Shown here piece after piece: positions 3,001-20,425 of a stretch of DNA of 24,790 nucleotides (position 1 is its first letter; every line of letters begins with the position of its first letter). The position numbers and the translations under genes are program-made. The stretch is from a virus, in the IMG/VR virus record IMGVR_UViG_3300037672_001277, positions 1 to 24,790 of that record; one strand, given 5' to 3'. The notes under the pieces were generated by a model. It was not told the DNA's origin. It did no database searches and saw only the letters and a program-made list of their open reading frames with translations.

Positions 3001-3464
3001 ACAGTCTCTTCAGTAATCAGAATTTCTGAGTTATCAAAGAAAGAAAAGTCACCACTAGTATTTGAATTAATATATTTTACATATAATGTGTCGTAATCCT
3101 TATCTGATTGCGCCGATGTAATATAATTTACAACTTTTGCAGTGACTCCAGTGCTCTGTCCTCTAATTCTTTTACCAATAAAAGACTGTGCATAAACGCC
3201 AACATCAATGCCAAGGTGTGTTGGATTTAATTGAACAGCAAAGTATTGTGGGTCAAATGTAACGCCACCAGGAACCACCATGGATCCCTCTTTGAACATA
3301 TGTGTTCCAAAGGATTCTACTTGGTTCTGTAGAATCGACTGTAGTGTCGATAATTCTCTAGCCTGAACAGGAAACCCAGGTTTGAACAGAACTCTGTGAT
3401 ATCCCTTTGTAGGATCAAAGTCGTCATAAAATGGGCTGACATTTAAGTTAGTCTGTTGTGGCAT
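1..3464 (-). CDS. DUF4815-type virion (tail/baseplate-periphery) protein, 3' end beyond window
   Basis: The minus strand stays open from an ATG at 3464 down to base 1, giving at least 1154 codons with no stop in the window. The first 60 residues contain FYDDFDPTKGYHRVLFKPG followed by VQARELSTLQSILQNQVESF, the hallmark opening of DUF4815 proteins of T4-like cyanophages (recognised, not searched). Near the visible end lie RVYHKENKRYTMRDIDNIAN and LEEVTTLSLLE, a second conserved block of these proteins. The body is Thr/Ser/Gly/Val-rich and beta-like. It starts 4 nt after the gp8 stop, and I see no late promoter in the 3' end of gp8, so it is probably cotranscribed and translated after gp8. An AAGAAG sits directly before the ATG as a weak ribosome site. 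The known family role is virion structural protein; a place at the outer baseplate or fibre attachment is inferred from position. No signal peptide or membrane segment is seen. Confidence 0.88.
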   Translation of the reverse strand, partial: MPQQTNLNVSPFYDDFDPTKGYHRVLFKPGFPVQARELSTLQSILQNQVESFGTHMFKEGSMVVPGGVTFDPQYFAVQLNPTHLGIDVGVYAQSFIGKRIRGQSTGVTAKVVNYITSAQSDKDYDTLYVKYINSNTSGDFSFFDNSEILITEETVTYGNTTINTGSTFASTISIDACLIGSAASVDDGIYFIRGHFVKVNKQTIILDQYSPEPSKRIGLRVLESTVSAKADNTLYDNAKGFSNFAAPGADRFKIDLQLFTKDLGEFDDTDFVEIVRVQEGVTFNLKIDTEYNRIRDYLAKRTFDESGNYTVESFKVSAADCLNDREGNEGVYFEDQTTFDGNEPGEDLACLKISSGKAYVYGYDVVKDSPTIIDFDKPRDVENVVKSQFIFEMGNKFAVNDVVGVATLTNRVDLYGGPNNSVTNLAAGTASKIGDAKIYNFGLKDAAYENDSTDWNLYLYDIQTYTTLQLNENVSADEMILSSYIVGERSGASGYAVAAGAGSSTVNVTQTSGSFIAGEKISINGRADISRTVEETTRFGINDVYNFSQDPGNFSCQKKLTKRPVPSIGDGNVKVTSGGDVTSGTNVDFRVFKPGDVVVFEVPNTSAGVNTSVLTRNVVRDIDASGTSMRVGAMTTVSDLFDGGVKAFTGKIFRGQQDVSLVNSSLIAPIPDALIENVDFTDSTLRLSSQVRNETTSAVGVLVVSISSVDLDDVIFVPFDQEDYQVVYSNGTIATIDSSQVTVTNGTQLTITGLAFSQSNVTVNVVVEKLVIKNKVKDFIRCTQTSITRSTNLRSGVGIQTSVNDGLNHSDLYGIRVQDREVCLNYPDVSNIVAIYESLDLNAPILDKLTFTSTDDIFNIAIVGEVIFGEISKALATVVSIDSGSNQINVVYKNNARFNILENLSFLESNTSAVCQALTPGKYRNITTNYILDKGQENQYYDYSRITRNSGSYAPSKQLLVIFNRFSVPSTDTGDVFTVNSYDQERYKDDIPQIGPGQVFAHDVLDFRPRVDTFNPDTATISPFFYTSRDFSGKPDRILTPNGSCVFDYSYYLARIDKLVLEAGSDEFNLVRGKPARSPLAPAAPEKSMEVATVLLPAFLRDTSEVRVYHKENKRYTMRDIDNIANRVKNLEEVTTLSLLERSVESIQVKDANG

Positions 3465-3468
3465 CTTC

Positions 3469-5040
3469 TTAGAATTCTAAAACAATTTTAATGTCTTCTT
3501 TTTGACGCTCATTTCTAGAAATAGATGGTCTATTGTCTAGGTAAATAATTTCGCCAGTCCTCTTATTTAGTTCAGGACCAGCAAGACCATTGGTGTAAGA
3601 CACACCTAGATCAACAACTTTACCCGATGGAGTAACAGTAGAAATACCAGTAAATCCTGAGTCAATCGTTACACTAAATGGTCCAGATGTAACTGCATCA
3701 CCAGTTGCACTGAAAGGAACAACCTTGGCATCGAGACTCACGCCAATGTTATCGGTCTCATCGTATTTGTCAGGATGTAAAAATAGATTTCTGTCAGAGA
3801 AATATTTAACCACCTGAGTGCTGGTGTCATATGATGCGACATAACCTCTTGCAGTTCCTACACCAGGGATATTTTGCGTAATCTCACTACCAATAGCGAG
3901 AGACTGTGTAATGTCTCCTGTGTATTTTAGAGCACTAGCAGCAGTAAACTCAGATGTGTTTAACAGAGCCGTAGAACCAGCACCAGCTGACACTGGGTTC
4001 TTAAGAAGACCTACCTGAGCAAACACAGTGTCCGAAATAAAGTCATAACTAGAATTATCAAATCTAGTGTAAATCAGGACTTTATCTGTACCCAACTCTT
4101 TATAAAGATCGAATCCATGACCTCTAGATGGGGGAATGATTGGAACCAGTTTTGCAAACCTAGCAGCAGATCCATTAATAGAAGAAAGATCAATTCTGGC
4201 AAAACTATATCCTTGACCACCTGCGGTTACTTTTGCAGAAATAATTTGACCACTAGTATTGGTTTGTACTCTACATTTTCCACCAACACCATCACCAAGA
4301 ATATCAACCTCAATTGGTGAGGCAAGGAAAGAGTAACCAGCTCCCTGCTCGTCAATAGAGATTACTTTAATTTGGTTATTATTAATTATTGAGTCACCAT
4401 TTTCTCGAACAACCTTAACTTCGTTTTCTACGGAACTGCTCCATTGATTAGGAACAGCCACATATTCGGTTGAGTCAAATTTGACAATATCAGCAGGAGG
4501 AACAGTAAAGAGGTATTTCCATAGATAACCGTCACCACTCGTTCCAGCAGCGGATGGTTCTAAATCAGTAAATGTTGGTTCATCTAGTGATGCTCCCGCG
4601 ATGGAGTTAATACCAGCTGCACCATTATCAATACAAATATAGACTCGAAAGTCTTTATTCATTATATAATAATTCGCGGAATATAATCTACTAGAGTTAG
4701 AAACTAGAGATCTATTGTTTGTGTCATAGTCATGTCGGTACATATCATACGATGTACCTTTTGTCCATTGAGTTTTGCGAACTAGTCTACGAACATCTCC
4801 AGGAAGAATCTTTCTTCCAAACAACATAGTATCATAGACATGATTACTATAACTAATACTATCCACTGGAGAAGGTGGTTGAACAGTTGTACTGTTCCAG
4901 GTATCAGTTCTGCCGTATCCTGCAATTGTAGGATTCGCTAGACTCAGAAATGTGTAATAGGAATTATCGCCACTAATAACGGACTCAACAAAATTGTTGG
5001 CATTAATAATCCTAAATTGATCGGTAATGATTGCAGCCAT
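3469..5040 (-). CDS. gp8: Baseplate wedge subunit gp8
   Basis: This 523-aa protein resembles T4 gp8, a dimeric wedge component that joins gp10, gp7 and gp6 in the baseplate. The N-terminal part matches the family in order: SKFR-like start (TDQFRIINANNFVES, residues 5-19), a GRTDTW segment where T4 has GRSEPW, PPSPVDS, and GDGYLWKYLFTVPPADI (about residues 168-184), equivalent to T4 GDGYVWEYLFEIPPD. The C-terminus has TGEIIYLDNRPSISR followed by EDIKIVLEF, a block typical of cyanophage gp8. It is longer than T4 gp8 (334 aa); the extra length is a Gly-rich beta region around residues 230-480 with GAGYSF/GQGYSF repeats shared in style with the giant neighbour. ATG at 5040 is preceded by a late promoter at 5074-5081. 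No strong Shine-Dalgarno is visible. The order gp6, giant protein, gp8 mirrors T4 genes 6-7-8. Confidence 0.88.
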   Translation of the reverse strand: MAAIITDQFRIINANNFVESVISGDNSYYTFLSLANPTIAGYGRTDTWNSTTVQPPSPVDSISYSNHVYDTMLFGRKILPGDVRRLVRKTQWTKGTSYDMYRHDYDTNNRSLVSNSSRLYSANYYIMNKDFRVYICIDNGAAGINSIAGASLDEPTFTDLEPSAAGTSGDGYLWKYLFTVPPADIVKFDSTEYVAVPNQWSSSVENEVKVVRENGDSIINNNQIKVISIDEQGAGYSFLASPIEVDILGDGVGGKCRVQTNTSGQIISAKVTAGGQGYSFARIDLSSINGSAARFAKLVPIIPPSRGHGFDLYKELGTDKVLIYTRFDNSSYDFISDTVFAQVGLLKNPVSAGAGSTALLNTSEFTAASALKYTGDITQSLAIGSEITQNIPGVGTARGYVASYDTSTQVVKYFSDRNLFLHPDKYDETDNIGVSLDAKVVPFSATGDAVTSGPFSVTIDSGFTGISTVTPSGKVVDLGVSYTNGLAGPELNKRTGEIIYLDNRPSISRNERQKEDIKIVLEF

Positions 5041-5073: not shown

Positions 5074-5081
5074 TATTTATA
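5074..5081 (-). promoter_or_regulatory. T4-type late promoter octamer before gp8
   Basis: The minus strand reads TATAAATA here, identical to the T4 late promoter consensus recognised by the gp55 sigma factor. It lies 34 bp upstream of the gp8 ATG. The octamer shares its TAA with the stop codon of the giant structural gene (5077-5079). Confidence 0.65.
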
Positions 5082-8000
5082 ACCGTCTTGGTAGAGCTCC
5101 AGTTTCTCTAAGACCAACACCTCTACGCTGAACGGTAGGATAAGCATCTAGATCATCCGAATATGTAAAACCACTAACAGCAAGTGCTACTGGTTGAGCT
5201 CCACGAGTAAACCCAGAGAACTTACCCCAAGTTAGATGACAATATGGAATTGCGGTAGATCCGATACCAACAAAATCACTCACATCAGTGTAAGAAGCAA
5301 TGTTCGCAGTGATGATTCCATTTCTACCACCGTTCTTAAATGTTAGAGCGGATGTATAGTAAATGCTGTCACCGTATTCTGTACTAATTGCAACAATTCT
5401 ACTGTCATGATCAAAGATACTTGTAACGGCAGCACCAAGTGTATTGATACCAGTACCATACAACTTGAACGGTCTGTTGGTTTCAAATCCAGTGACATTC
5501 TTTCCAGTGTTAACAAGATCGGAAATATCAAAGTCAATCTTCAGTGCAAGATCAGTTCCAATACCAGGACAAGTAGAAATACCAGTTACTAGACCAATAT
5601 AACCTTGGATGTTTGCAACTAGATTAGGAACACCTACAAGTTGCTCATGATTAATACCACTCGCTGCAGTCGTACCGAAACCAACTTCTGCAAAAGCGAA
5701 CAGATTCAATGTACTCGCTGACAATGCATCTGTAGTTCCTTTGAATAATGCAGTGGAATCAACATATACTTCAGCATCATTTGTTGAGAAATCTGCGATG
5801 ATATGAGAGAATGGATTAATTAATGCCTCAAGAGAGTCTCTAGCTTTGGTAACTAATTGACCTTCAATGATAAAGTCTCTCTTCTGCTTATTCCATGTGA
5901 CCGGTTTAAATACATCATTACTAATACCAACACCTTGATAGAAAGGAGTTTCTACAACAGCAGCACTATCAATCCTGGTAACAATTCTTTCACGCTCCTG
6001 AGCACCGCTTCTGCTGTCCTTAGGAACTCTATTAAATTCAACATCTGTGCTCTTATTGATTTTTAGACTATCACCAACTTTAACATTTTCATTTACACCA
6101 AAGATGAAACTATCTTGACCAATTGTTCCTCTGTAGAAGAAGATAACAACATTATCTTGTGTAGTGGGAGCAGTAGTAAACTCCAATATAGAACCACCAG
6201 TAAACTGATAGTTTCTACCTGGTTCCTGTACAACACCATTGATGAATACCAACAGAACTGTAGAAAGATCAATTTCTTTAGAATCTAAGTCATTAATGTC
6301 AGTCTCAAAGCTAACCAGTTGTCTTTCATAATACAACGGGAATCTCTTTCTACTTCCATCTTGATCAGCCTTGATGCTGTCAATATAGTCAATGTTACCA
6401 AACTGCCAAGATGCAATCTGATCAGTAAAGACAGAAACTACTTCAAGTTCAAATTCTTGGAAACTGTCACCAGCATTAGGATCGGTGGAAAGACCAGCAA
6501 CGGTAAATTTATCACCACGCTTGAATCCATATCCCTTCTTGCTAAATTCAAACTCCTTAACTTCAAAGAGTGTAGATCCAATACCAGTTGCAGTGCCCAC
6601 TCCAAGAACTTGGACACAGATAGATGCACCAACACCAGTTATGGTAGTGTTGCCCAATCCAATTCTTGATATACCGACGATTGGCAGATTTTCGCCATTA
6701 GGTTCTGGTGGCAGAGCATTTGCATTTACATAGTTACTACCACCATCATTGACAGTAAAGATCAGAGTTCCGCCTGCACCAACAACTGCACTGATGTCAG
6801 CTCCAGTTCCAGCACCACCACCAACACCAATATTAACTGCGATTGTATTAGTGGTGACAGAATTAATCGATGTAAAGATGCCAGCAACAGGATCTGTAGG
6901 TCTTGGATACAGGTGCTCTCCAAGATAATTATCTCTAGAACACTTAAATCCAATAGAATCAGTTGCGATAGCAACAGTGTTGCTGGTTGTCAAACCATGG
7001 TTGGGAATTGTAAGAATTAGATTACCAGTTGTGGATGCATAACTTGCAGTGGTTGCAGTATAAGCAGAACCAGTATTAGCAGTAATAGACCCTAAACCAG
7101 CTGATGAGAATGTATGAGCATACTCATAATCAGTGACTGCAATACCAATAGTTCCAATATTTGTTTTGTAACCAGAACCAAATGATAGAGGATAATATTG
7201 TGCAACTGTGCCACCACTTTCGTAAGTGTGTGGAATAGTCGAAGGACCAACCAGTGTCTTAAATGTTCTTGCTGAAATAATTCCAGTAACAGGAAGCGAA
7301 TCCTCATAGTCTGGGAAGAAACTGGTAGTAATACCCTGATAATTCAAAGTCTTAATAGAATCAGTAGTCGCACTGATAAATGTATGTACAGACTGAGGTA
7401 AAGACTGAATTGCGCTTGTAGCAGCAGAAACAAATGTATGTGCAGATGTTCCTGTTCCACCAGTACCGACATTTAGTTCAATTGTTCCTGTTTGCTTGAC
7501 TAGTGCTCCAGAAGCGGCAGAAATAAAGGTGTGACCATATCTCTGTCCAACAGGAGAGGCACCTACATCGATAGAGAATGTGTTTGCAGCGGTACTTGCA
7601 ACTGCTACCCACTTACCATTAATAGGATCGGATGACCTTGGATATGTGTGATTGGTTGCATTACCATCCTGAGTGCATGTAAATGTTAAGGAGTTGCCTT
7701 GAATCTGTACTCTGTTACCAACCATCAGGTTATGACCTGCAGAAGTTGCAGTCAGGATACCCGCAGTTGAATCATATTGAGCAGCAGTAATATTTGAAGT
7801 TACTGTACCAATTGCAACAACACTAAGAGATGTTCCAGAAGCTGGATCGGTAGCACGAGGATATGTGTGGTTAGTTGCGTTACTATCTTGAGCACATGTG
7901 AATGTAAATGCATTGTCTGGGATTACAACACCCTTACCAACATACAAATCATGAGTGCCAATAGTAACAGTCATAATACCTACATTAGGATTATAATCTG

Positions 8001-11000
8001 CCGCACTGGGATTCCAATAAACATTAGTTCCAGCGGCACCTACATTAACTCTTAGAGTATTTGCAGTTACATTGGAGATTGTCAAATATTGATTAAAAAT
8101 TGGATCAGTTGAACGAGGGTATGTTTTATTACCAGTACCCATAGCACAACTGAATGTGATGCCATTCTCTTGAATAGAAACAGCATCACCATTTACTAGT
8201 CCATGAGCACTTGCGAACGAGATGGTAGAAATACCCGTAGAAGGATCATAAGTAAACCCATTAGGAGTTCCGACAGGATTCTTGGGACATACAAATTTCA
8301 GCCTATCCAACTTCATCTGATCTTCAAGTCTAAGACCATGACTCTTGAGAGTAGAAACGGTCAAGATACCTGTCTTATTATCATAATCTGCATCAATAAT
8401 GCCGTAAGAGATACCTGTAGTAGGAACGCCTACAACGCCCGTGATGGAGTTTCCAGCACCAATCTCTAGTCTTACCCTAGCACCAGCAAACGGAGCGTAC
8501 CCACGCCCAGGAGTAGATGCCAGAGAGACAATGATGCCACCTCTAGGTAGTTGGTTTTCATTAATATCCCCTTCATCAATAATTAGATCTGAATATCCTA
8601 CTGAAGTAATACCAGTAAACTGAACACTTGCAATACCTCCTACTGTTTGTTCAATAATTTGGAAGTTATATGCTCCAGAATTATTAAATCCAAACGGAGC
8701 TTGGAACATGCTGTTAACAAACAGAACACCGTTACCCCCAGTTGTACCAATACCAGTAACGGCAGCACCAGCAGAAGTTAAACCAAATGTATTTTGAAGT
8801 CCATCAAACTTGTCAGAGATGTCATCAAAAATTTGGTTGGTATCGTAATCTTGTCTGAGGTAAGTTCTACCGCCAAACGATGCTCTAGGATATGATAGAT
8901 TACTTGGGTCAGTTTGACCTAAGTCACCACCAAGAGGAGCTTCTGTAAAGTGAACATTACTGTTAACAATTTGGAAAGATCCTCTATAGATTCTTCCCAA
9001 TGCACCTGCTGCATGATCTGTTGCTGCTGATCCAACTGCTCCACGCTCAACTTCTACAAGAGCCCAGGTTCCAATGCCAGTAATAGGTCCAATGGAAGTG
9101 GTGCCAAAACCTACAGTATTGACAATACTATATTCCTCATCAACACTGATAAGATCACCAGAAACAACTGTGCTGAGACCACTAAGAACAAATGCAGTTA
9201 CGATACCATTAACAGGAACCTCAAGATCATAAGAAACTGCGGTAAACGACAGTGGTTTCTGTACTAAACCATTAATAGCAACAATTGTTTTAGAGTCACG
9301 CTTATTCATGGTAAAGCGGTGCTGGTTACCTGCACCAACTCCATCTTCAAATGTTATACCAAGACCAGCTCTTGCATTATTAATTGTGGTTGCAATATTG
9401 AACTGATTATTGTTCTGTTTGACAATGTATACAGTTCCTGGCAGCGGTTCTGAGACAGGAGATGATAATGGGTAATATCTTAGAGCACTGGCAGCGATAC
9501 CGACCAGGTTAGAATCTGGCGTATAAGTAAGTTCTTCGGTGTTAGAGAAGAAGTGCTTAAGTGAGAATGTTCCATTTACTCTATTGAGCTCTAAAGGACT
9601 TGTAGGGTTGACTGCTCTCTCATAGATTGGAGTCCCTTGATACTTAAGTTCAAAACTACGGATATTTCTGTTGTTAATACCAAGATAGGTGTTTTGTGCT
9701 ACATTCTCAAATATCCTACCATAATCAAAGGAACCAATACCAGTAACATTACCGTTAGGGTCAAGATCTTTATAAAGAACTTCAGTGTAAGCTTTAATGC
9801 TTACCATTCCAGATACATTGGAATCAGGATACCACTTGAGCAATACCTGATTATTCTCAAATCCAGCACCAAATGTACCTACACCAGTTGTAGTTCCAAT
9901 CGCTGCAATTGGTTGCTGTGATAGGAATGTGTCTTGATTTGCTGGATCAGAGAGAACATAGATCTGATGGAGTGTTTGAGTGCTTCCATATGCCACATGA
10001 ACTGTGGACTTCATGGAGAGATCTACTCCACTGTTGATACCAACAACTGTTGTAATCCCAGTTGTAGCAGCAGCACTTACAACGATTCTTGCACTTCTTT
10101 CAGTGCCTTCTGGTGTGAAAGGAATATTGAAGTGTTTTACGGATGTGGTTCCAAGACCAACATTATTAAATGTGATAATTTTGGATCTTACATCCAGATT
10201 ATTAACTTCATCGTGAATATAATCAACTTTATATACATCATTTTCAATGTAACTGGTAAAGGTTCCCATGAACTTACCAGCAGAAAGACCACCCAAACTC
10301 TGCCTTGTATTGAATGATGCGAGTTCTGTAGTATATGTGTCAGAACCATCGTATTGCAGAGCAAGCTCTACATAGTCTGCCTCATTAGTACCTTTGTCAA
10401 TAATAACAAAATGTGCAAGTCCAGCAACAAATCCAGTTGTTGTTCCAATTCCAACAATATTAGTTGTTGTTCCTGTAGAAACAATTTTGTTGGAAGAAAC
10501 ATTCTCTACTACACCAAGTGTACCGATACCAGATCCAATGTCAGCAGCAAAACCTTGCTGCATAACCTTAATATCATAGTCAGTGTCATATGGTTCGTAT
10601 GGCTTGATTCTTAACTGGGTTTGATTAGAAAGAGTATCAAATACACTAAAGAATTGTGCAAGACCAGTAGAAAGACCGACCTGGTTAGTATTAACCATGT
10701 GCGACTTCTGAAGGAAGTAAGTATTCTTATTGATGGTAATAAGAATTGCTTCATTCAACTGATATTGATTCTTCTGAGGATCATTAGCTTTATGAACGGT
10801 TTGAATCAGATATCTAGAGAAGTTTCTACCTGCAATAACAGATGCAACTGTTCTTTCATCACTAAGATCGTTAGATTCGTTGCTAACAAACTCAGGACTG
10901 ATGTCATCATGAAGCAGAACTCTGTTAGTCTTACAGAGAATAAAGTCCGAAAGTCTATTAGATTCTAATTGAAGAAACTTAGAAACTGTTGCTGTGGCAT

Positions 11001-14000
11001 CAACATCTCGTGAACGGTCAAAATTGTAGATAGAGTCAACTCTTAGTGGATCAGAAACAAAGTCAAGGACTAATCCACCAGCATCATCTGCAGGTTCTAA
11101 AGACTCTCCAGCATTACCAACAGAAAGAATTTGTGTATTTGCAAAATTCTTAAATCCAGCTGGATGTACAATGTCATTTACATAATTCACTAACTCTTCA
11201 TATGTCTTAGAACTTTCAATCGCATAAGACATATTTTGATAATAATCATTATCTGGTAAGAATTGATTGCCATCATTAATCTTACCAACATTATCAGACC
11301 AACCAAGGTCTGCGTTTATCGTAGAGTCAATATTAAAATACCCATCAAATTCAATTACATCTTGAACTTCTGCAGAGTCACCGCTATTTGTACCGGTGAT
11401 TTTATCATCAATCTCAAGGTTGAAAGATCCACTGATTACCAGGATACCTGTCTTAGTATCAATAGAATCAAGAACAAGGTTTGTTGATAAGTCGTTATTT
11501 CTTCTCAGAGGTTCATTTAATTTGAATTCTGAGAATGCTTTTGTTACTGAGAATTGAGCAAGATTTTCTGCCTTGACAATCTGACCAAAACCAGGGATAC
11601 ATGTTGCACCAGTACCAACATTTGACGAAATTCCAATATAGTTAAATGTTACTTGTCTTGGGTTTGTAGCACTATTATAATCCGCAACAGAGAAGTTTTG
11701 GAACTTGTAGTCACCAGAGTTAAATCCGTCACCGTCGTTATTGAATGTAACTCCTTCTAAGAATACTATATCTCCAGTATTAAAAGGTTCGATTACATAA
11801 CCAAGAACTGGAGTTTGAATCTTACAAGTAAGGACACCAACATCACTGAACGCTTCAATAACACCAACACCATTACTATTCTGTAGTGGAGCTAGACCAT
11901 AGTCATTACCAGTAAGTCCTCTTGGATTTACAATAACACTAACACTGTTGACAGCAGAATCACTCAGTTCACAGGTAATCAGACCATTATCAATAATCTC
12001 TCCAGTTGACTTATCATACACAACCAGAGAAGGAGCGTTAAGATACTGTCTACCACCAAATACAACTTTTGCATCAATAAGTTTATTGGCATTTTTAGCT
12101 TGAACAATTCTAGGTAAGAACGCATCTGGTCTCAATGTAATATCAGAAGGATATCCATAAACATCTGTTGGGACAACAACCGAGTCTAAAAGGTTTATAT
12201 TATCGCCTGTAGGAGTAATAACTGCACTAATTCCAATCGTTCCTACACCAGATACCCCAGGAAGTTTAGAGTAATTGATGCCACCACTTTGCAATCTAAT
12301 CTTAGCAACACCACCAGTAGCTCCAATTGAAGTGGTTGTGTAGAAAATATCATCACAATCATCTCTAAGGTATGACAGTTTTTCGGGAGTTACTGCAATA
12401 TTAGCTGTAATAGTGGTTGACCCTACTCCAGTTACGGTGTAGTTACCAGTAAATCCACTATTAAAATAGAGAATTTGGTTGTTAGAAAGTACATCGTTAT
12501 CAGAAGATACGATGTAACCACCTTTTTCTATCGTATAGAATAAAGTTTCAGTTACCTCGGAATCAAAAGTAATTGTTTTTCTGGGAGTATCTGCTGGATT
12601 AGTGGTTGCAATACCAACTGTACCAACACCAATAACTTGGAGATTTGTTGTATTACCAGTTCCGATATACTCATTAAAGTTATTTGCGTCATAGAATATC
12701 TTTAAATCTGATCCAAGAAGACTTGAGTCGCTTAAGTTAAATACAATATCATTTTGTTTTGTGACATTGATAGGAGGATTGACGGGGTTTACTGTTTGAC
12801 CAGTAAATCCAGTGCTTGTAAAACCAACAACTTCTGGAGGATTTTTGAATAGTTGAGTATAAGAGTTTGTCAGCTGGAAATTATTATTATCAATTTTCAA
12901 CACAAAATATGGTCTCTGAGATAATCCACCTGGTACTTGACTAGGAACTCCGCCTGCACCATACATCAAGACTTTAAATCCTGTTTGTAAGTTATGATCC
13001 GCTACAGTAAATACATTCGTTGTGGTATTGACTCCAGATGTGGGAATCTCAACAGGATTTACAACAACAAAACCATCAAGAAGTCGGATATCTACCATCG
13101 TAGATGCTCCAATACCAGTCGCAAATCCTGGTCTTACGGTGAGATTTAACTCATCATTTTCAGATAATTTGTGATCATTCTCAGTAGTAATCGTAATAGT
13201 GCTTCTAGTTGCATCAGCAGTCTCTTGAGCATAATTTGTCTCAATAGAGTAAGTATATACATCGTCACCATTTGTGACAAAGAAGAGCTCATCAGAGTTT
13301 GTTGTAGTCTTTAAACCAATAGAACTATTAGTAAGTCTAGTTACAAAGAAGTCTCCTGAGATACCACTAGGAGCAATCCAAGGATCTACCGATCTAGTTG
13401 CTTGGATTGCAGTATTGCCATTGTTCTTTAAAGTAACTTTTTGATTATTGACTAATGGGTGATTATTAAGGTAGAGGTTCTGCGACATCAACGAAGCTGT
13501 ACCAGTATTAGGTCCAACAGTCACCAAAACTGATGTTGAAAGACCTGCAGTAGTTCCAACACCAACAGACTCCCTAGGATTGAAGTAGAATGTTTCTTGG
13601 AACTTAGAATTAAAAGGATCGGTCTCTACAGGAACTGTAAACTTATTTTGATAATAAGTGATAGCACTTCCCACAAACTCAGTCGTAGTAGTTACTCCAA
13701 CTGGTCTCTCAAGTCTAATATACGGACCAATTTTTTCTGATGGGAATGTTTCTAGAAGTCTAGCAATTTCTGTTCCAATACCAACGGAGTCACCAACGGA
13801 AACATTGGGTGGAATAAATCTTACATGAATATCGGTAACAATACCAGTAAAGGTAGTTGTAATAGCAACCGTTTTGTAATCAGTTACTGCAATTTTTTTA
13901 TATCCTTCAAGATTTCTAACAAAAGTAGAAACACCTGTAACTTCAATTACATCATTTGCTTGGAAATCATGGAAGGGGAAATTTTGAAAAGTAACTCCAT

Positions 14001-17000
14001 TTCCATCAAAAACGATTGGGCAAGAACTAAGCTTTCTCTTATCACTCTCAACTTTATTAACTTGTTGACCAAGTATTCTAGAAACTTCCGCATCAGCACC
14101 AGTGCCACTGGTTCCAACATTGTTAAAGATTAAGTTTTCTCCAATAGAGTACCCTTCACCAGGACTATCAATAACAAAACCATCGATAGAAGATACGATG
14201 AGGTTATCTGGATTTGATATCTGGTTAACTTTCTTATATGGTTGGAAAACATAATCATATGCAACACCATCACCAAACAAGTTGTAAGGTGTTGTATTTC
14301 TAGTTAATTCAGAACCCTCAAAGTTAAATTCAACTTGGTTCTGCATCTTACCCAGAAGAGTATTTTCTGGAACAGCAAAACTACGATAAGTATCACCAAT
14401 AAAGAATGGGAATACGGGTTTGTTTAGAATATCTACAGTAGCAAAATATGCATAAACACCTTGTGGGAATTCTGGAGTTTTTGTAAATCTTCCATTATGT
14501 TCATCTAAGTCGCCGTTCCCTGTATAAACAAAATCATCAACAAAGTATCCAAACGGGAATAAGGAAGATGCAGGTCTGTTTGGAATGTTTGTAGCAACAA
14601 TCTCATAACCAGAGATCATTCTTTTAACATCAGACTGAACATCAGCTGGATTGTTTAGTCCGTAAGGTCCATAAATTGGGTTTCCATCATACGCCCATCC
14701 AACAATAGGAGAGTGACCACTCCCATCATCATTCATAAATTCGCGGAAAGATTTACCATATCCAACATAATTTACAGCAAGACCCTCATTATTAGGATAG
14801 AGGACTGCCATCTCATCTTGATCTAAGTCAAATGCACTGCTGACAAGAATAGGTCTAATAGCAGCTTCACATTTAAAGTTAGTGCCAACAGGAAGCACAC
14901 TTATGCTGGTAGTTGTATCTGCATAACCAACACCAGAAGAAATGATCTTAACATCAGTAATTTTGCCGTTAGATACAATACTTCTAAGAATCGCGCCAGT
15001 AGCAGTGGCACCTACACTAACAACTTCTAAATCTGGTGGTCCAGTGTAACCAGACCCACCATTCTGAACAAAAGCATCTGCAATCTTACCATTTGCAATA
15101 ACTAAACCAATTTGCCCAAGAACTCCAAAAGGAATACTGACATTTGGAGAATTATCAAAACTTACAATATCTGATCCATAATTTCTACCTTCTTCATATA
15201 AGAGAATGTCTTCAATTTCTCCTCTAACAATTGGAGTAGCTACAAGTGTTTTTTCTTGACTATCCTTTGTAAGAATATTAACATTACACTTAATTTCTGG
15301 ACTAAAGAATCTCTGGAAACCAGATCCGTTAGTTTCTAAGATAATATTATCATGATTGAAGAAATCGGTAAAAATACCAACTTTATCACCTTTGTTTCCA
15401 GCTTCTGCTAATCTAAATCTATTTTCGTCCAATCTAAGGACTTTATATTGTTTAGATGAATCAATACCACTTACAGGAGTTGTATCATAAGTATAATTTA
15501 TGATATCGCCATTCTTCCAACCATGCCTCTTAAAATAGACCCAATTGTTTGCTGTATTGATACCAGCGGGTTTTACTGCAAGATGTCTATTAGAATATCC
15601 ACTGCCAGGATCCTCAACAATCAATTTACCAATTGTTGTTCTTTGTTCAGATGTTCTGAAGATATGAACACCAGAATTAGCTAAAAGAGCGTTCTCATCA
15701 AAGGTAATAGTGCTAAGACCTAAGATAGCATCAGTTTTGTTGTTATGTAAAGAGACAACCCTAGGACTCTTGACATTAGCAAAGTATACCTGACCATTGA
15801 AGAGACTAAGTTCTTGATTAGCTGGTCCAGTGGTTCCGATACCAAGATTTCCTGCGCCATTGTTATCATAAATGATTTTCTCACCATCTGAGAAGTTGTG
15901 ATCATTATTAAAAGCAATAGTGTTGTCAAAAGAGCGTGTATTACCACTAAGATTGGTGCTAACGCCTGAGAAGAAGACTTCTCTAAATCTTTCTTCTAAA
16001 AATGCTCTTGCAATTGCTCCAGAACCGTTTCCGCCAAAAATTTCAATGCCAGTGACCTTATCAATGTCAAAATCTGTTGGGTCAATGAAAATACTCTTTA
16101 CACTACCGCTAACTACAGATACCGCACCAGCAGTATTTGCTACGCTAACATTTTCATCTGTAATGACAATGTTTGGTGGATTTTGAGCATCATAATCTGT
16201 ACCAGAGTTCAGAATATTAACTCTTTCAATAGGACCGAAGAAAACTGTATCTGCAGACTTGTAATTTAGTATTTCTGTACCATTTACAAGCATTCCAGTG
16301 TTACCATCTGCAGTTCTTTCAGATGTTGTTTGTAATTCCTTACCACTAGTAAGATTTTGCTCTAAAACAAACCGACGAACTGGTCTAGAAGGGAAAATAC
16401 TTCTTCTTGCTTGAGATGCAAAAACAAAATCATGTTCACCAGTATTACCTGACAGAGGAGGTGAGAAATAAACAGGTAGATTAGCTTTAATAAAAGATCT
16501 TGACTGATAAAGTTTAATTTTGTTATTTGAACCTTGGACTTCAACAAAGAATGTCTTTGATTGATCAATGCCACCTATGGCAGGAGTTCCTGGAGCAGGA
16601 ACATACGAAATCTCATCTCCAGTTTGGAAAGGAACTGCATTGTCGAATGAAATAATAGCATATCCGTTTTTAATAGAGTCAAATCCTTGCCAGTTGCCTA
16701 ACGCAAGTGTTGGGTTTGTTAACTTTGCATGAACCTTGTCAATATTGATTGTGTAACTGGGAAGCGAACTAGAAGCAACAAAACCTTCTCTTTTTTTGCT
16801 ACTAGATACCGACTCATCCGAAATATATGTGTTATTGATATCAGCTAACAGTTGCTCATCCCCACCAAGGATTGGAACAATCGTAGATGTCGCTTTTTTC
16901 TGTCTTCTAATTATGTCATGGTCAAAAGTAGTATCAAGAGTACCAACATTGCCACTAACGGTAATTGAATTGGTAACTCTATTGATATTCGTTACTTTTA

Positions 17001-18501
17001 AATCGACCGCAACGATAGTTGACGCTCCTCGTCTGACAATATCAACCGTATCTCCAATCATTAGAGAACTTGGTTCAATATAACCACCAATTGTAAAATT
17101 GGAACCAGCAAAACTCTCAATTAAGAATCTAGTCGATGTATTGTAGATCCAACTGTTAAAAAATACAGTTTCATAGGTTCCATTATCAGAATCAAAGTAT
17201 CTACCTAAGTTTCTTACTCTAATGGCAGAACCGTAGTCTAAATTACGAAGAGGTTGGTTGCTTTTAAATTTAGAGATAACACCAGTTACTCTCATTTCGA
17301 CCTTTTTGGTCAAATCACTACTTTCATAACCATAAACTACTGTAGGTGCAGTAATAGTGATATTATCTGGAATTTCTACAGTAGTTGTATCAACATCATA
17401 GAATTGGTTTACACTTTTTGTAGTATAATTGAGTTGTTGATAATAACTATCTGTAGGTGTTCCAATTTCAAGTACACCTTCTGTAGAAAATCCAACAGTA
17501 GAATCTACTGTAAGTACAGAAGCACCTAAACCAATAATTCCAATATTTCTTGTTCTACCTGCGATGACAAATGTACCATCAGTTAGGGATCTCTCGTCAA
17601 AACCAGTAAAAAGTGATATTTTATAAAAATTATCTCTAATCTGAGTTACTTCAGAGATTGGACCTGAAGCTGCGTTGATCTTATCATCATTAGGATCGTT
17701 ATCTTGGAATAAAGTCTCACCAACAAGACCAAAAATGTCACCAGAGAGTAATTCTACAGAAATACTCTTTCTGCGAACATAGTTGGCAAACGAAGGTTTA
17801 ATAAGATATTTTTCAAGGTCATTAATTTTTGGTTCAAGACCAAATAATGCCTTGAACAAGATAACGAAGGAAGCTCTTGTTCCTTTAGACTCATATAAAC
17901 TTCTTGCTTCCTTAATAAAGTTGCCTACATTCAAATCTGGTGAGAGAGTTACACCCTCTAGACCAGGAGCATAAATTCCTTTTAATTTTCTATAAAATTC
18001 TTTTAAAAATAAAGAACTAAGGTTATTAACATTTGCGCCAGACTCATGAGAAGCAGCAGTAGTGTCCTCATAGATTAAATTTGAGAGATCGTTCCTTTTT
18101 CTGTAGGATGAAATGCCACTGAATCCACGAGAACACCCAACGAACGAAGTCTGAGTCTTTTCAGTGTAAGTAATGATCTCATCATTGATTTTTAGAAGAC
18201 CATATTTTGCTGGAAATCCATCTGTATCGTCTACAACGATAGTATCGTCAGACGCAGAAATAGAAGCGTTCAGAGAAGTAGTTCCTCTGATCACATCTTT
18301 GGTTAAATTGTCTAAACTGATGTATGCATCAAGATTTTCGATGATGTCAGCTGGACCACCACGGAAATCTTGAGAAATATAGTATTGTTCTAAGAATTTT
18401 GTAAAAAACGGATTCTCAGAAATGGCAAACTCAGGAATAGTCTGACTTACCGTCTGATAGGTTTTAACCCGAGGACTTAGAGGCGAATATGTTTCGATCA
18501 T
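5077..18501 (-). CDS. Giant virion structural protein (4474 aa) in the gp7 position, degenerate YHYH domain
   Basis: A single uninterrupted frame of 4474 codons lies between gp6 and gp8, the place of the wedge initiator gene 7 in T4 (gp7 is 1032 aa). Residues about 1-260 look like a distinct head: PEFAISENPFFTKFLEQYY, a DDTIVVDDTDGFPAKYGLLKI segment split by a Cys-Ser-Arg-Gly turn, then YESKGTRASFVILFKALFGLEP. Residues about 1224-1370 form a YHYH-type domain (GHSPIVGWAYDGNPIYGPYG at about 1260-1279), but the signature strand reads YAYF, so the histidines are lost. Residues about 3390-3905 hold repeated modules with HTYPRxTDP motifs and HTFxSA segments. Much of the rest is Gly/Thr/Val-rich with many GIGTT/GVGTT strings. 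The C-terminus (YPTVQRRGVGLRETGALPRR) looks conserved in cyanophages. ATG is 1 nt after the gp6 stop, with AGTAGG adjoining it. Virion location is strongly suggested by context; gp7 equivalence is inference from synteny. Confidence 0.9.
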   Translation of the reverse strand: MIETYSPLSPRVKTYQTVSQTIPEFAISENPFFTKFLEQYYISQDFRGGPADIIENLDAYISLDNLTKDVIRGTTSLNASISASDDTIVVDDTDGFPAKYGLLKINDEIITYTEKTQTSFVGCSRGFSGISSYRKRNDLSNLIYEDTTAASHESGANVNNLSSLFLKEFYRKLKGIYAPGLEGVTLSPDLNVGNFIKEARSLYESKGTRASFVILFKALFGLEPKINDLEKYLIKPSFANYVRRKSISVELLSGDIFGLVGETLFQDNDPNDDKINAASGPISEVTQIRDNFYKISLFTGFDERSLTDGTFVIAGRTRNIGIIGLGASVLTVDSTVGFSTEGVLEIGTPTDSYYQQLNYTTKSVNQFYDVDTTTVEIPDNITITAPTVVYGYESSDLTKKVEMRVTGVISKFKSNQPLRNLDYGSAIRVRNLGRYFDSDNGTYETVFFNSWIYNTSTRFLIESFAGSNFTIGGYIEPSSLMIGDTVDIVRRGASTIVAVDLKVTNINRVTNSITVSGNVGTLDTTFDHDIIRRQKKATSTIVPILGGDEQLLADINNTYISDESVSSSKKREGFVASSSLPSYTINIDKVHAKLTNPTLALGNWQGFDSIKNGYAIISFDNAVPFQTGDEISYVPAPGTPAIGGIDQSKTFFVEVQGSNNKIKLYQSRSFIKANLPVYFSPPLSGNTGEHDFVFASQARRSIFPSRPVRRFVLEQNLTSGKELQTTSERTADGNTGMLVNGTEILNYKSADTVFFGPIERVNILNSGTDYDAQNPPNIVITDENVSVANTAGAVSVVSGSVKSIFIDPTDFDIDKVTGIEIFGGNGSGAIARAFLEERFREVFFSGVSTNLSGNTRSFDNTIAFNNDHNFSDGEKIIYDNNGAGNLGIGTTGPANQELSLFNGQVYFANVKSPRVVSLHNNKTDAILGLSTITFDENALLANSGVHIFRTSEQRTTIGKLIVEDPGSGYSNRHLAVKPAGINTANNWVYFKRHGWKNGDIINYTYDTTPVSGIDSSKQYKVLRLDENRFRLAEAGNKGDKVGIFTDFFNHDNIILETNGSGFQRFFSPEIKCNVNILTKDSQEKTLVATPIVRGEIEDILLYEEGRNYGSDIVSFDNSPNVSIPFGVLGQIGLVIANGKIADAFVQNGGSGYTGPPDLEVVSVGATATGAILRSIVSNGKITDVKIISSGVGYADTTTSISVLPVGTNFKCEAAIRPILVSSAFDLDQDEMAVLYPNNEGLAVNYVGYGKSFREFMNDDGSGHSPIVGWAYDGNPIYGPYGLNNPADVQSDVKRMISGYEIVATNIPNRPASSLFPFGYFVDDFVYTGNGDLDEHNGRFTKTPEFPQGVYAYFATVDILNKPVFPFFIGDTYRSFAVPENTLLGKMQNQVEFNFEGSELTRNTTPYNLFGDGVAYDYVFQPYKKVNQISNPDNLIVSSIDGFVIDSPGEGYSIGENLIFNNVGTSGTGADAEVSRILGQQVNKVESDKRKLSSCPIVFDGNGVTFQNFPFHDFQANDVIEVTGVSTFVRNLEGYKKIAVTDYKTVAITTTFTGIVTDIHVRFIPPNVSVGDSVGIGTEIARLLETFPSEKIGPYIRLERPVGVTTTTEFVGSAITYYQNKFTVPVETDPFNSKFQETFYFNPRESVGVGTTAGLSTSVLVTVGPNTGTASLMSQNLYLNNHPLVNNQKVTLKNNGNTAIQATRSVDPWIAPSGISGDFFVTRLTNSSIGLKTTTNSDELFFVTNGDDVYTYSIETNYAQETADATRSTITITTENDHKLSENDELNLTVRPGFATGIGASTMVDIRLLDGFVVVNPVEIPTSGVNTTTNVFTVADHNLQTGFKVLMYGAGGVPSQVPGGLSQRPYFVLKIDNNNFQLTNSYTQLFKNPPEVVGFTSTGFTGQTVNPVNPPINVTKQNDIVFNLSDSSLLGSDLKIFYDANNFNEYIGTGNTTNLQVIGVGTVGIATTNPADTPRKTITFDSEVTETLFYTIEKGGYIVSSDNDVLSNNQILYFNSGFTGNYTVTGVGSTTITANIAVTPEKLSYLRDDCDDIFYTTTSIGATGGVAKIRLQSGGINYSKLPGVSGVGTIGISAVITPTGDNINLLDSVVVPTDVYGYPSDITLRPDAFLPRIVQAKNANKLIDAKVVFGGRQYLNAPSLVVYDKSTGEIIDNGLITCELSDSAVNSVSVIVNPRGLTGNDYGLAPLQNSNGVGVIEAFSDVGVLTCKIQTPVLGYVIEPFNTGDIVFLEGVTFNNDGDGFNSGDYKFQNFSVADYNSATNPRQVTFNYIGISSNVGTGATCIPGFGQIVKAENLAQFSVTKAFSEFKLNEPLRRNNDLSTNLVLDSIDTKTGILVISGSFNLEIDDKITGTNSGDSAEVQDVIEFDGYFNIDSTINADLGWSDNVGKINDGNQFLPDNDYYQNMSYAIESSKTYEELVNYVNDIVHPAGFKNFANTQILSVGNAGESLEPADDAGGLVLDFVSDPLRVDSIYNFDRSRDVDATATVSKFLQLESNRLSDFILCKTNRVLLHDDISPEFVSNESNDLSDERTVASVIAGRNFSRYLIQTVHKANDPQKNQYQLNEAILITINKNTYFLQKSHMVNTNQVGLSTGLAQFFSVFDTLSNQTQLRIKPYEPYDTDYDIKVMQQGFAADIGSGIGTLGVVENVSSNKIVSTGTTTNIVGIGTTTGFVAGLAHFVIIDKGTNEADYVELALQYDGSDTYTTELASFNTRQSLGGLSAGKFMGTFTSYIENDVYKVDYIHDEVNNLDVRSKIITFNNVGLGTTSVKHFNIPFTPEGTERSARIVVSAAATTGITTVVGINSGVDLSMKSTVHVAYGSTQTLHQIYVLSDPANQDTFLSQQPIAAIGTTTGVGTFGAGFENNQVLLKWYPDSNVSGMVSIKAYTEVLYKDLDPNGNVTGIGSFDYGRIFENVAQNTYLGINNRNIRSFELKYQGTPIYERAVNPTSPLELNRVNGTFSLKHFFSNTEELTYTPDSNLVGIAASALRYYPLSSPVSEPLPGTVYIVKQNNNQFNIATTINNARAGLGITFEDGVGAGNQHRFTMNKRDSKTIVAINGLVQKPLSFTAVSYDLEVPVNGIVTAFVLSGLSTVVSGDLISVDEEYSIVNTVGFGTTSIGPITGIGTWALVEVERGAVGSAATDHAAGALGRIYRGSFQIVNSNVHFTEAPLGGDLGQTDPSNLSYPRASFGGRTYLRQDYDTNQIFDDISDKFDGLQNTFGLTSAGAAVTGIGTTGGNGVLFVNSMFQAPFGFNNSGAYNFQIIEQTVGGIASVQFTGITSVGYSDLIIDEGDINENQLPRGGIIVSLASTPGRGYAPFAGARVRLEIGAGNSITGVVGVPTTGISYGIIDADYDNKTGILTVSTLKSHGLRLEDQMKLDRLKFVCPKNPVGTPNGFTYDPSTGISTISFASAHGLVNGDAVSIQENGITFSCAMGTGNKTYPRSTDPIFNQYLTISNVTANTLRVNVGAAGTNVYWNPSAADYNPNVGIMTVTIGTHDLYVGKGVVIPDNAFTFTCAQDSNATNHTYPRATDPASGTSLSVVAIGTVTSNITAAQYDSTAGILTATSAGHNLMVGNRVQIQGNSLTFTCTQDGNATNHTYPRSSDPINGKWVAVASTAANTFSIDVGASPVGQRYGHTFISAASGALVKQTGTIELNVGTGGTGTSAHTFVSAATSAIQSLPQSVHTFISATTDSIKTLNYQGITTSFFPDYEDSLPVTGIISARTFKTLVGPSTIPHTYESGGTVAQYYPLSFGSGYKTNIGTIGIAVTDYEYAHTFSSAGLGSITANTGSAYTATTASYASTTGNLILTIPNHGLTTSNTVAIATDSIGFKCSRDNYLGEHLYPRPTDPVAGIFTSINSVTTNTIAVNIGVGGGAGTGADISAVVGAGGTLIFTVNDGGSNYVNANALPPEPNGENLPIVGISRIGLGNTTITGVGASICVQVLGVGTATGIGSTLFEVKEFEFSKKGYGFKRGDKFTVAGLSTDPNAGDSFQEFELEVVSVFTDQIASWQFGNIDYIDSIKADQDGSRKRFPLYYERQLVSFETDINDLDSKEIDLSTVLLVFINGVVQEPGRNYQFTGGSILEFTTAPTTQDNVVIFFYRGTIGQDSFIFGVNENVKVGDSLKINKSTDVEFNRVPKDSRSGAQERERIVTRIDSAAVVETPFYQGVGISNDVFKPVTWNKQKRDFIIEGQLVTKARDSLEALINPFSHIIADFSTNDAEVYVDSTALFKGTTDALSASTLNLFAFAEVGFGTTAASGINHEQLVGVPNLVANIQGYIGLVTGISTCPGIGTDLALKIDFDISDLVNTGKNVTGFETNRPFKLYGTGINTLGAAVTSIFDHDSRIVAISTEYGDSIYYTSALTFKNGGRNGIITANIASYTDVSDFVGIGSTAIPYCHLTWGKFSGFTRGAQPVALAVSGFTYSDDLDAYPTVQRRGVGLRETGALPRRL

Positions 18502-18502
18502 C

Positions 18503-20425
18503 CTACTGTCTGATTAGCGTTCCGTTGGAGTAACTAGAAGTGATTTGATAGCCAATGCCAGAAATTTGCTGACCTGAGGAAATCGTGTCTCTAACAATAT
18601 TTATCTTGGTATTGGACATGTCTAATGCAAGATAAAGATCTTTTAGTCCAATTACATCATTTGATTCAGGATAAGCTTGAATTTCTACAATGTTGTTACC
18701 CTTAACTGTGTTATCAATGTTGATAGTATTCATAATTACTTCACCTTTAAGGTAATCTACAATTCCTGCAGATTTAACAACAACAGTAGCGGGTTCACCT
18801 GCACTTTGTGAAGGTTTAAAGATAGCAAGGTCACCAAATCTTCCATCATCTCTGGGAATATCAGAGATATACACAGTATCTGGGAATCCATCAATTTGGA
18901 ATCCAGTAGATTTAATTGTTCCGCCACCTTCTAGAATGTGGAACCGATTACCAAAGCATAACTCATACTGAGCAAACTGATTGACCAATGCTTTGAGATC
19001 TCTCCGCATGGTAACCTTCATAATATTGGAAGTAATAGAAGGATCAGTCTGATCAATGATTCTTTGGGCTTCAGAATATTTAAATCTACCTCCAAATGCA
19101 TTCAGGTTAGTAGATCTGCCATATTGTGTAAGAGATTCTGTAACCTCACCTTTCAAACTGTTTGCATCATCTAGAATACTATTGTTATAGTAAACAGAAG
19201 TGTCTAATTCAACATAAAGAATCTGCAGATCTTTGATTCTTTGGTTAATGCCTGCAATACCGTATTGCTTCAGTCGTGATAGAATAGTTGTCTTTGTAAA
19301 GTCGGATAAAAATGTACCGCCTTTTGGTTTAATACTTAAAATTACAGTTCCAAATTCTGGTGGGTCTAATTCTTCTCCACCAACAACAGAAATGGATTCT
19401 GCATTAGGATAAATGTCCGAAACGATAGCTTCGTAGTCCTTCGGTGTAACCGCCCTAGACTGCGCTGAGTAGAGTCTAGGAGCAAAGTATCGTATAGAGT
19501 CAATTGACTCGATGTCGCCGCCATTACGGGCAGGCTGAGAGGTGATTACATTGATTGGAGAGGGTGATACAACAGGATTACCAGAGTCATCTACGATTCT
19601 ACCTGAGAATGCAAAATTCTTTCCTTCATTTCCTGACTTTCCATCAGTCAAAATGAACGAAACATCAATCTGATCACCATTATTCAGTTTAGTACCGAAA
19701 ATACCATCACCAAAGAGGATTTCGTAGGTCTCATTTGCTGTTTCTTGGATCAAATAGATGTTTGACCCACTTGTTACATCAATAATATTGTCAACTTTAG
19801 AGAATTGGAGACCAGCAGACGCTCCAGATCGTCTTACAGTGACTTTTAGGGTGTCTAAATCGATTCCAGTGTTGTCTAAGAGGAATCTTTGCTCAGAACT
19901 TCCATTAGAAACGAAACTTCTTGTTAAAAATATGCCCTGAAAGACCGAGATACCGCTAAATTTAGCTGTTCTAGCAGGATTTTGTGATGTTGGGCTCTGT
20001 CCAGAGTCAATTGGACTAGCTATAGTGATATCTTCGGGTACAGAGAAGACAAAATTGGTGTCATTGATGACTCCAACCACTGCTAAACCAGCTTTTAAGG
20101 TTACTGTATTGCTATTGCCCTTAAATGGGAAGTCAAAATCAATAACTGCTAAGGGAGCTTTCTTAGATCTCGGTACATAACCAATGTTTCTTGCCAAAGA
20201 GACGACATTTTCTCTCAAAGTGGCAGAATCAAGGAAAGCTTCGTTAGCAATCATGTTGCTATTGAAGGCAGTAATATAAGTGTTGTATGCTAATACATCG
20301 ATTAGCACCGACATATTAGATCCTTCATAGTCAAAGTCACTAAAATCCGAGTTAGATCGGAGGTAATCTTTAATAGATTCCTTAATCTGCTCGAAATTTA
20401 AGTTTGTAAACTTAGTGAAGGGCAT
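18503..20425 (-). CDS. gp6: Baseplate wedge subunit gp6 (Baseplate_J family)
   Basis: This 640-aa protein is close to the length of T4 gp6 (660 aa), the subunit that forms the inner ring holding the wedges together. The N-terminus has the family opening: FTNLNFEQIKESIKDYLRS, DFDYEGSNMSVLIDVLAYN and FLDSATLRENVVSLARNIGY (residues about 5-85). The J-like core includes IRYFAPRLYSAQSRAVTPKDY at about residues 308-328, followed by VSDIYPNAESISVVGGEE. The C-terminal part is beta-rich, as expected for the dimerisation region. It begins 5 nt after the gp25 stop, with an AGGT about 9 nt before the ATG as a weak ribosome site, and ends 1 nt before the giant gene. Cotranscription with gp25 from the late promoter at 20853 is likely. 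The identification rests on family motifs plus the gp25-gp6 order found across contractile-tail systems. Confidence 0.94.
   Translation of the reverse strand: MPFTKFTNLNFEQIKESIKDYLRSNSDFSDFDYEGSNMSVLIDVLAYNTYITAFNSNMIANEAFLDSATLRENVVSLARNIGYVPRSKKAPLAVIDFDFPFKGNSNTVTLKAGLAVVGVINDTNFVFSVPEDITIASPIDSGQSPTSQNPARTAKFSGISVFQGIFLTRSFVSNGSSEQRFLLDNTGIDLDTLKVTVRRSGASAGLQFSKVDNIIDVTSGSNIYLIQETANETYEILFGDGIFGTKLNNGDQIDVSFILTDGKSGNEGKNFAFSGRIVDDSGNPVVSPSPINVITSQPARNGGDIESIDSIRYFAPRLYSAQSRAVTPKDYEAIVSDIYPNAESISVVGGEELDPPEFGTVILSIKPKGGTFLSDFTKTTILSRLKQYGIAGINQRIKDLQILYVELDTSVYYNNSILDDANSLKGEVTESLTQYGRSTNLNAFGGRFKYSEAQRIIDQTDPSITSNIMKVTMRRDLKALVNQFAQYELCFGNRFHILEGGGTIKSTGFQIDGFPDTVYISDIPRDDGRFGDLAIFKPSQSAGEPATVVVKSAGIVDYLKGEVIMNTINIDNTVKGNNIVEIQAYPESNDVIGLKDLYLALDMSNTKINIVRDTISSGQQISGIGYQITSSYSNGTLIRQ

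Follow-up and report, generated by a model that had tools for sequence, protein, structure and literature searches.

The 24,790-base fragment of viral DNA analysed here (IMG/VR record IMGVR_UViG_3300037672_001277, of which it is the entire content; hereafter the window) carries on its minus strand a single uninterrupted open reading frame (ORF) of 13.4 kb, running from ATG to stop at positions 5077-18501 with no internal stop codon and encoding a giant protein of 4474 amino acids (aa), 481 kDa and a predicted isoelectric point of 4.8. An earlier note made from the sequence alone had described this frame, leaving its strand unstated, and had placed it between the genes of the T4-like baseplate wedge proteins gp6 and gp8; both observations hold, with gaps of 1 nt to gp6 and 36 nt to gp8. 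The identities of gp6, gp8 and gp25 were confirmed by Pfam and PHROGs. As argued below, the giant is very probably orthologous to gp7, a wedge protein of the T4 baseplate, whose place in the wedge cluster it occupies in this cyanophage.

5077..18501, minus strand: whole gene, giant protein of 4474 aa, very probably a gp7 orthologue
18503..20425, minus strand: gp6, the wedge partner of gp7 (PF21379, E 6.6e-17; phrog_219)
20431..20829, minus strand: gp25, wedge (PF04965, E 4.1e-10)
3469..5040, minus strand: gp8, wedge (PF09215, E 3.7e-17)
3..3464, minus strand: VrlC (DUF4815), a separate protein cut by the window edge (PF16075, E 1.8e-49)

A giant family in the gp6-gp8 slot

The PHROGs profile phrog_2885 ('baseplate wedge subunit', 4179 positions) matched the giant over most of its length (residues 11-3544 of 4474; E = 0, 2902 bits), and both P-SSM2 gp7 and S-T4 gp197 aligned with it end to end at ~30-35% identity. 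Given these matches, the frame is not a product of chance; on sequence grounds the ORF is a real gene and a member of the phrog_2885 family of giant wedge subunits. Its N-terminal 260 aa found matches in 472 phage records, nearly all of them from cyanophages, and many of the relatives already carry a gp7 annotation.

In the complete genomes inspected, proteins in the same slot measure 5195 aa in P-SSM2 (gp7), 4749 aa in S-T4, 4454 aa in P-HM2, 4156 aa in S-SM2, 4067 aa in Bellamy, 3895 aa in S-SRM01 and 3048 aa in S-PM2, and the relatives altogether range from 1937 aa (S-CREM2 gp122) to 6376 aa (Syn33_092). The latter lies right after gp6 and is followed by a gp9-like gene and another baseplate gene before gp8. 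At 4474 aa, the protein is of middling size for the giant gp7 family and normal for marine cyanomyoviruses, rather than extreme for a phage of this class, as had been assumed. The gene order gp25-gp6-giant-gp8-VrlC recurs in P-SSM2, S-SRM01, S-T4, S-SM2, Bellamy and P-HM2; S-PM2 has it too, apart from one small extra ORF ahead of gp8. While the gene itself is ordinary for marine cyanophages, in which giants are the norm, its split-core architecture is the informative part.

The gp7 wedge core and its three pieces

In the wedge core of T4 gp7 (residues ~640-890), a helical segment is followed by the motif FYSTKGIEASYKFLFKVLYN, then by domain V (Gp7_5th, 766-861) and by ...DVIRFVHPVGFGF. The giant contains this core once and in the same order, distributed over three pieces at residues 16-67, 191-250 and 2380-2458:

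18301..18456, minus strand: core piece N1 (residues 16-67), helical; counterpart of T4 gp7 645-693 (Pfam Gp7_helical 643-689)
17752..17931, minus strand: core piece N2 (residues 191-250), 'LYESKGTRASFVILFKALFG'; counterpart of T4 gp7 724-759, 'FYSTKGIEASYKFLFKVLYN'
11128..11364, minus strand: core piece C (residues 2380-2458), 'DNDYYQNMSYAIESSKTYEELVNYVNDIVHPAGFKNF'; counterpart of T4 gp7 864-891, '...DVIRFVHPVGFGF'

Profiles for the individual pieces, obtained by splitting the profile of 90 compact gp7s described below, scored 25.8 bits for N1 (E 4.4e-8), 29.5 bits for N2 (E 2.5e-9) and 53.5 bits for C (E 9.3e-17) on the giant, as compared to best scores of 3.5, 1.2 and 3.1 bits, respectively, among controls consisting of 200 shuffles and the reversed giant sequence. 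In the giant, the signature motif of N2 ('KGxxxS...LFkxLf') takes the form LYESKGTRASFVILFKALFG near residue 203, and that of C ('HPxG') the form YYQNMSYAIESSKTYEELVNYVNDIVHPAGFKNF near residue 2417. With the same profiles, each of the giants named here yielded N1, N2 and C exactly once and in order.

The connection to T4 runs largely through compact relatives that were reached via the second motif and sit in the same slot, namely proteins of 503 aa in Stenotrophomonas phage BUCT608 (gene order gp25-gp6-gp7-gp8-VrlC) and of 631 aa in Ochrobactrum phage OC, the latter labelled 'T4-like gp7'; a similar compact gp7 of 586 aa is present in the unannotated record of Desulfovibrio phage 7757. By blastp, BUCT608 gp7 and the giant share collinear matches (13-38/22-45; 70-136/183-247, E 1e-6; 381-454/2401-2470, E 1e-6), and residues 231-280 of OC gp7 match 2412-2461 of the giant (E 7e-10). 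A profile of 90 compact gp7s, drawn mostly from viral contigs and excluding both T4 and the cyanophage giants, recovered T4 gp7 at E 8.5e-13 and the giant at E 4.1e-26. For a compact-gp7 profile compared with all PDB sequences, the top two hits were entries named 'Baseplate wedge protein gp7' (E 3e-11 and 1.7e-10). When 47 cyanophage-type N-termini were aligned directly by hhalign with 14 T4-type gp7s, the first motif together with the next strand matched at E 6.4e-6; the second motif aligned in the correct place, albeit weakly (E 0.017). Direct sequence searches of the PDB with the N-terminal 260 aa or with cyanophage-only profiles returned no gp7, since the distance is too great when the compact relatives are not there as a bridge, and residues 2330-2560 gave either no PDB match or chance matches only. 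The Pfam family PF23786 (Baseplate_wedge) stayed below its cut-off on the giant, though collinear at N2 and C, and passes it in compact relatives.

We found no published structural test of the gp7 label of the giants, and one publication contradicts it (PMC7029224), which is why the label was examined by sequence and structure alike. AlphaFold2 folded a 299-aa compact relative with a predicted local distance difference test score (pLDDT) of 78.8. When this model was searched with Foldseek against 350,542 chains, the only three significant matches were all gp7 (9f4a, 7e-11; 5iv5, 2e-9; 5hx2, 5e-7), the next-best match lying at 0.067. Residues 1-267 of the model align with T4 gp7 639-888, and the nearly continuous core of the compact relative is accordingly predicted to fold like that part of T4 gp7. 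For the giant itself, a low-confidence model gave a partial match: its N-terminal region matched gp7 of 5iv5 at 632-846 (VIA, Z 8.6), and its residues 241..417 matched KP1 gp7 761..851 (VIA, Z 8.2; root mean square deviation (rmsd) 4.3 over 83 residues). Synteny, profiles, compact relatives and the compact-relative model thus bear out the proposal of the earlier note that a gp7-like protein has received a very large addition.

These giants are among the largest proteins of marine cyanophages, and they are labelled inconsistently as gp7, 'head and packaging', 'head closure', 'unknown' or 'hypothetical'; the three-piece core test unifies such variously named families. Core pieces are also matched by phrog_4406, 701, 19630, 3465 and 26741 ('head and packaging', 'head closure Hc2', 'unknown function'), which look misannotated. 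Labels likewise vary for Syn33_092, S-RIM2_088 and S-CREM2 gp122 ('virion structural', 'hypothetical' or 'wedge, intermediate').

Insertions, C-terminal tail and a proposed baseplate arm

The remainder of the protein, more than 4,000 aa, is distributed over two insertion slots within the core and a long C-terminal tail:

17932..18300, minus strand: insertion slot 1, residues 68-190, with a beta module at ~68-165
17251..17781, minus strand: region like domain V of T4 gp7 (residues ~241-417), overlapping the end of N2; from the VIA match to KP1 gp7
11365..17250, minus strand: insertion slot 2, the main giant insertion (residues ~418-2379), beta-rich modules within the N2-C gap
14431..14727, minus strand: YHYH-like module (residues 1259-1357; PF14240, E 1.2e-24, profile positions 88-183 of 193)
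5080..11127, minus strand: C-terminal tail (residues 2459-4474), ~2,016 aa; absent in S-CREM2, short in T4
6712..8280, minus strand: repeat region (residues 3408-3930), four repeats of ~75-85 aa; largely missing from S-SRM01

Slot 1, between N1 and N2, measures about 123 aa in the giant, 1-6 aa in most compact gp7s and ~612 aa in Syn33; residues 65..162 matched phage virion proteins by VIA (9in6_M, Z 10.4; 8jov_1, Z 9.5). The N2-C gap widens from 56-80 aa in OC-type proteins over ~105 aa in T4, 235 aa in BUCT608, ~300 aa in many viral contigs and 600-900 aa in a few, to 1554 aa in S-PM2, ~2,090-2,320 aa in the common cyanophage giants (~2,130 aa in this one) and ~2,685 aa in Syn33. At this one loop the length spans ~50 to ~2,700 residues, a series that illustrates how a phage scaffold protein can grow. 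A tree of the core, which is unrooted, short and poorly resolved, says no more about the growth of the insertion than that lengths of >1,500 aa occur in the cyanophage-type sequences.

The earlier note had regarded the N-terminal 260 residues as a compact, separate anchor domain. They do carry N1 and N2; however, an inserted beta module (residues ~68-165) lies inside them and the last third of the core is found only at 2380-2458, so that they are two-thirds of the gp7 core rather than a complete anchor, and roughly half of the added residues lie inside that core. The description of the rest as repetitive likewise applies in part: four clear repeats occupy residues ~3408-3930, for which 'tail fiber' families of PHROGs are among the matches listed (phrog_5342, phrog_1276), but elsewhere there is one weak pair and tandem repeats at the DNA level are almost absent.

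The YHYH-like module resides within the main insertion and is present in all giants examined. YHYH domains are predicted to have hydrolase activity (PMC7824862). An active metal-dependent hydrolase was considered and is unlikely here: the naming histidine motif, part of the predicted metal site, reads YAYF in the giant and YxYF in most relatives. Modules of the 'G.GY' type look like domain I of the tail sheath and like segments of tailspikes; in compact gp7s the G.GY module matches domain I of the tail sheath protein gp18 (PF22639 in BUCT608 gp7; PDB matches), which suggests a module common to sheath, spike and wedge proteins. At its very C-terminus (residues 4460-4474; window 5080-5124, minus strand) the giant bears a motif like 'YPTVQRRGxGLRxTG', a possible terminal assembly or attachment signal; the giants of S-SRM01, P-SSM2 and S-T4 end similarly.

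According to work on T4 and XM1, each wedge has a core bundle, (gp6)2-gp7, to which proteins of the gp7 type contribute helices (PMC10457771; T4 wedge and pins, PMC3004832). By analogy, N1, N2 and C would come together in the folded giant, and the assembled core would combine with N-terminal helices from two gp6 chains to form this bundle in each of the six wedges, with gp8 nearby. The core would anchor the chain, while the inserted modules would leave the wedge as a large arm and form the outer baseplate; six copies of the giant would add about 2.9 MDa. Taken as a whole, this explanation (a gp7 orthologue with an insertion-split core whose additions form a large arm) seems to us likely. The arm might contact the host surface or carry receptor-binding proteins, the job of the gp7-gp10-gp11-gp12 periphery in T4, and we lean slightly towards such a role. 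In phage XM1, the 80-106 loop and the C-terminus of the gp7 orthologue bind tail spikes (PMC10457771), and the additions of the giant after its first helical segment and after the core are plausible counterparts of these attachment places. Early in coevolution with Synechococcus, a non-synonymous change arose in the 3048-aa S-PM2d081, which is equal in length to S-PM2 p084 (PMC9910659). As to the mass-spectrometric check that had been proposed, S-CREM2 gp122, with N1/N2/C at 14-58/169-237/1847-1921, was detected in purified virions with 91 unique peptides (PMC10665884). Also in support, families of T4 gp11 and gp9/gp10-N went undetected by sequence in seven giant-gp7 cyanophages, while Syn33 has a gp9-like protein.

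Several results weigh against this explanation. Piece C alone matches T4 weakly (E ~0.02) and depends on the compact relatives as a bridge. The AlphaFold2 model of residues 1-480 of the giant is poor (pLDDT 62, helices <50), and Foldseek found no match under 1e-3 for the N-terminal model, which is why the compact relative was folded instead; the comparison of the N-terminal structure with T4 gp7 envisaged in the earlier note hence gave a partial match by VIA and no significant one by Foldseek. Over the whole VIA match between giant and T4 gp7 the rmsd is large (21.6), so that domain placement is not reproduced, and the VIA and Foldseek alignments of the compact-relative model are also of high rmsd, presumably because domain orientations differ; we therefore take the structure matches as evidence for fold and order, not as an assembly model. 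We infer both the position and the function of the arm. For gp10 and gp11, a negative result at the sequence level does not establish absence.

Alternatively, the protein could be gp7 by descent, but with inserted modules that act mainly inside a larger baseplate of two layers, as its scaffold or cementing layer, rather than as a host-contact arm. Residues 1-3300, including the whole main insertion, are mostly conserved at ~30-38% across several genera, as expected of a scaffold; the loss of the naming histidines from the YHYH module argues against an enzyme; the neighbouring VrlC matches the phage DUF4815 chain of solved structures; and a double-layered baseplate has been proposed (PMC7029224). 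The spike binding by the corresponding loop and C-terminus in XM1, the variable C-terminal tail, from which whole repeat modules are lost between relatives, and the change of the S-PM2 counterpart during host coevolution speak against it. We consider this alternative quite possible, if short of an even chance. Going further than the host-contact role favoured above, the cyanomyovirus gp7 core, opened at two loops and extended at its C-terminus, may have become the outer baseplate itself, a single chain of ~0.5 MDa per wedge that fulfils the roles shared in T4 by gp7, gp10, gp11 and gp12 and whose modules are exchanged between lineages as host range changes; this we put forward tentatively, as more doubtful still. 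Our literature search found no cryo-electron microscopy structure of a T4-like cyanomyovirus baseplate, which does not disprove that one exists. The question of the cyanophage baseplate periphery hereby becomes a defined structural target.

VrlC and comparison with known gp7 proteins

According to one publication (PMC7029224), VrlC takes the place of a missing gp7. If gp7 were indeed missing from cyano- and pelagimyophages, the giant would be an unrelated, tail-fibre-like structural protein that happens to lie between gp6 and gp8. The direct sequence similarity between the giant and T4 gp7 is weak, gp7 has been listed among the genes too divergent to cluster (PMC3037559), and much of the giant resembles tail-fibre or generic virion modules. 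Yet all three core pieces reside in the giant, once and in order, and neither a complete VrlC (S-B64) nor the partial VrlC of the window matches N1, N2 or C. In BUCT608, VrlC and the compact 503-aa gp7 stand side by side. In seven complete cyanophage genomes, the core pieces were found in the giant only, other matches being confined to the G.GY-type middle region, whereas the record of the window, a fragment, cannot show this; the separate gp7 elsewhere in the genome that the earlier note had named as grounds for abandoning its proposal did not turn up in these relatives. We thus rejected VrlC as a gp7 substitute and hold an unrelated giant to be very unlikely. The published claim of replacement is contradicted, and by the three-piece core test the wedge of marine T4-like phages keeps its gp7. 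The first ~84 residues of VrlC match the DUF4815 chain of 9euf and related solved structures (E 1.7e-16), which offers a structural starting point for a cyanophage protein that is still poorly understood.

A fusion or an assembly error in the metagenomic data, a concern for a 24.8-kb virus fragment, can be practically dismissed as the source of the long frame, as complete genomes of isolated cyanophages hold same-slot proteins of the same length range with end-to-end similarity and the same uninterrupted frame occurs in many other viral contigs.

Two other ORFs on the minus strand lie upstream of gp25. The first (21996-22751, 251 aa) contains a DxD-like 'WIDSDIVY' segment, appears glycosyltransferase-like by eye, and is without a Pfam or PDB sequence match; no other DNA of the window is as well conserved (79% to S-T4), and similar-sized ORFs precede gp25 in several relatives. 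The second (21026-21691, 221 aa) belongs to phrog_3704, where the label is 'ferredoxin'; some records call it 'purM' or 'phosphoribosylaminoimidazole synthetase', and it has no Pfam family match.

Among known systems, the giant is closest to the cyanomyovirus proteins annotated 'gp7 / baseplate wedge initiator' (P-SSM2, S-SRM01, S-T4 gp197, S-SM2, P-HM2; phrog_2885), with which it shares the slot, a length of 3.9-5.2 thousand aa and the split core. The P-SSM2, S-T4, S-SRM01 and S-SM2 proteins can be aligned to it over most or all of their length, whereas P-HM2 gp7 aligns in patches only. C-terminal modules vary: S-SRM01 is without most of the repeat region and S-SM2 without the last module. 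Syn33_092 and S-RIM2_088 have the same split core in single copy and a slot 1 of ~612 aa in both; the S-RIM2 giant is almost identical to Syn33_092 (6376 aa) in length and core positions. S-CREM2 gp122 (1937 aa), again with a single split core, ends right after piece C. T4 gp7 (1032 aa; PDB 5iv5, 5hx2) shares the order N1-N2-domain V-C and the gp6/gp8 slot but has ~640 residues before its core, whereas the giant starts with the core at residue 16 and lacks these pre-core domains. The compact gp7s of BUCT608, OC and Desulfovibrio phage 7757 lack them too, their core beginning at the N-terminus as in the giant; the pre-core ~640 aa are a feature of the T4 lineage and do not define the wider gp7 family. 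OC and BUCT608 also have the order gp25-gp6-gp7-gp8 in common with the giant and differ from it in that the core of compact gp7s is nearly continuous, with an N2-C gap of 58-235 aa and extra modules that are small or absent.
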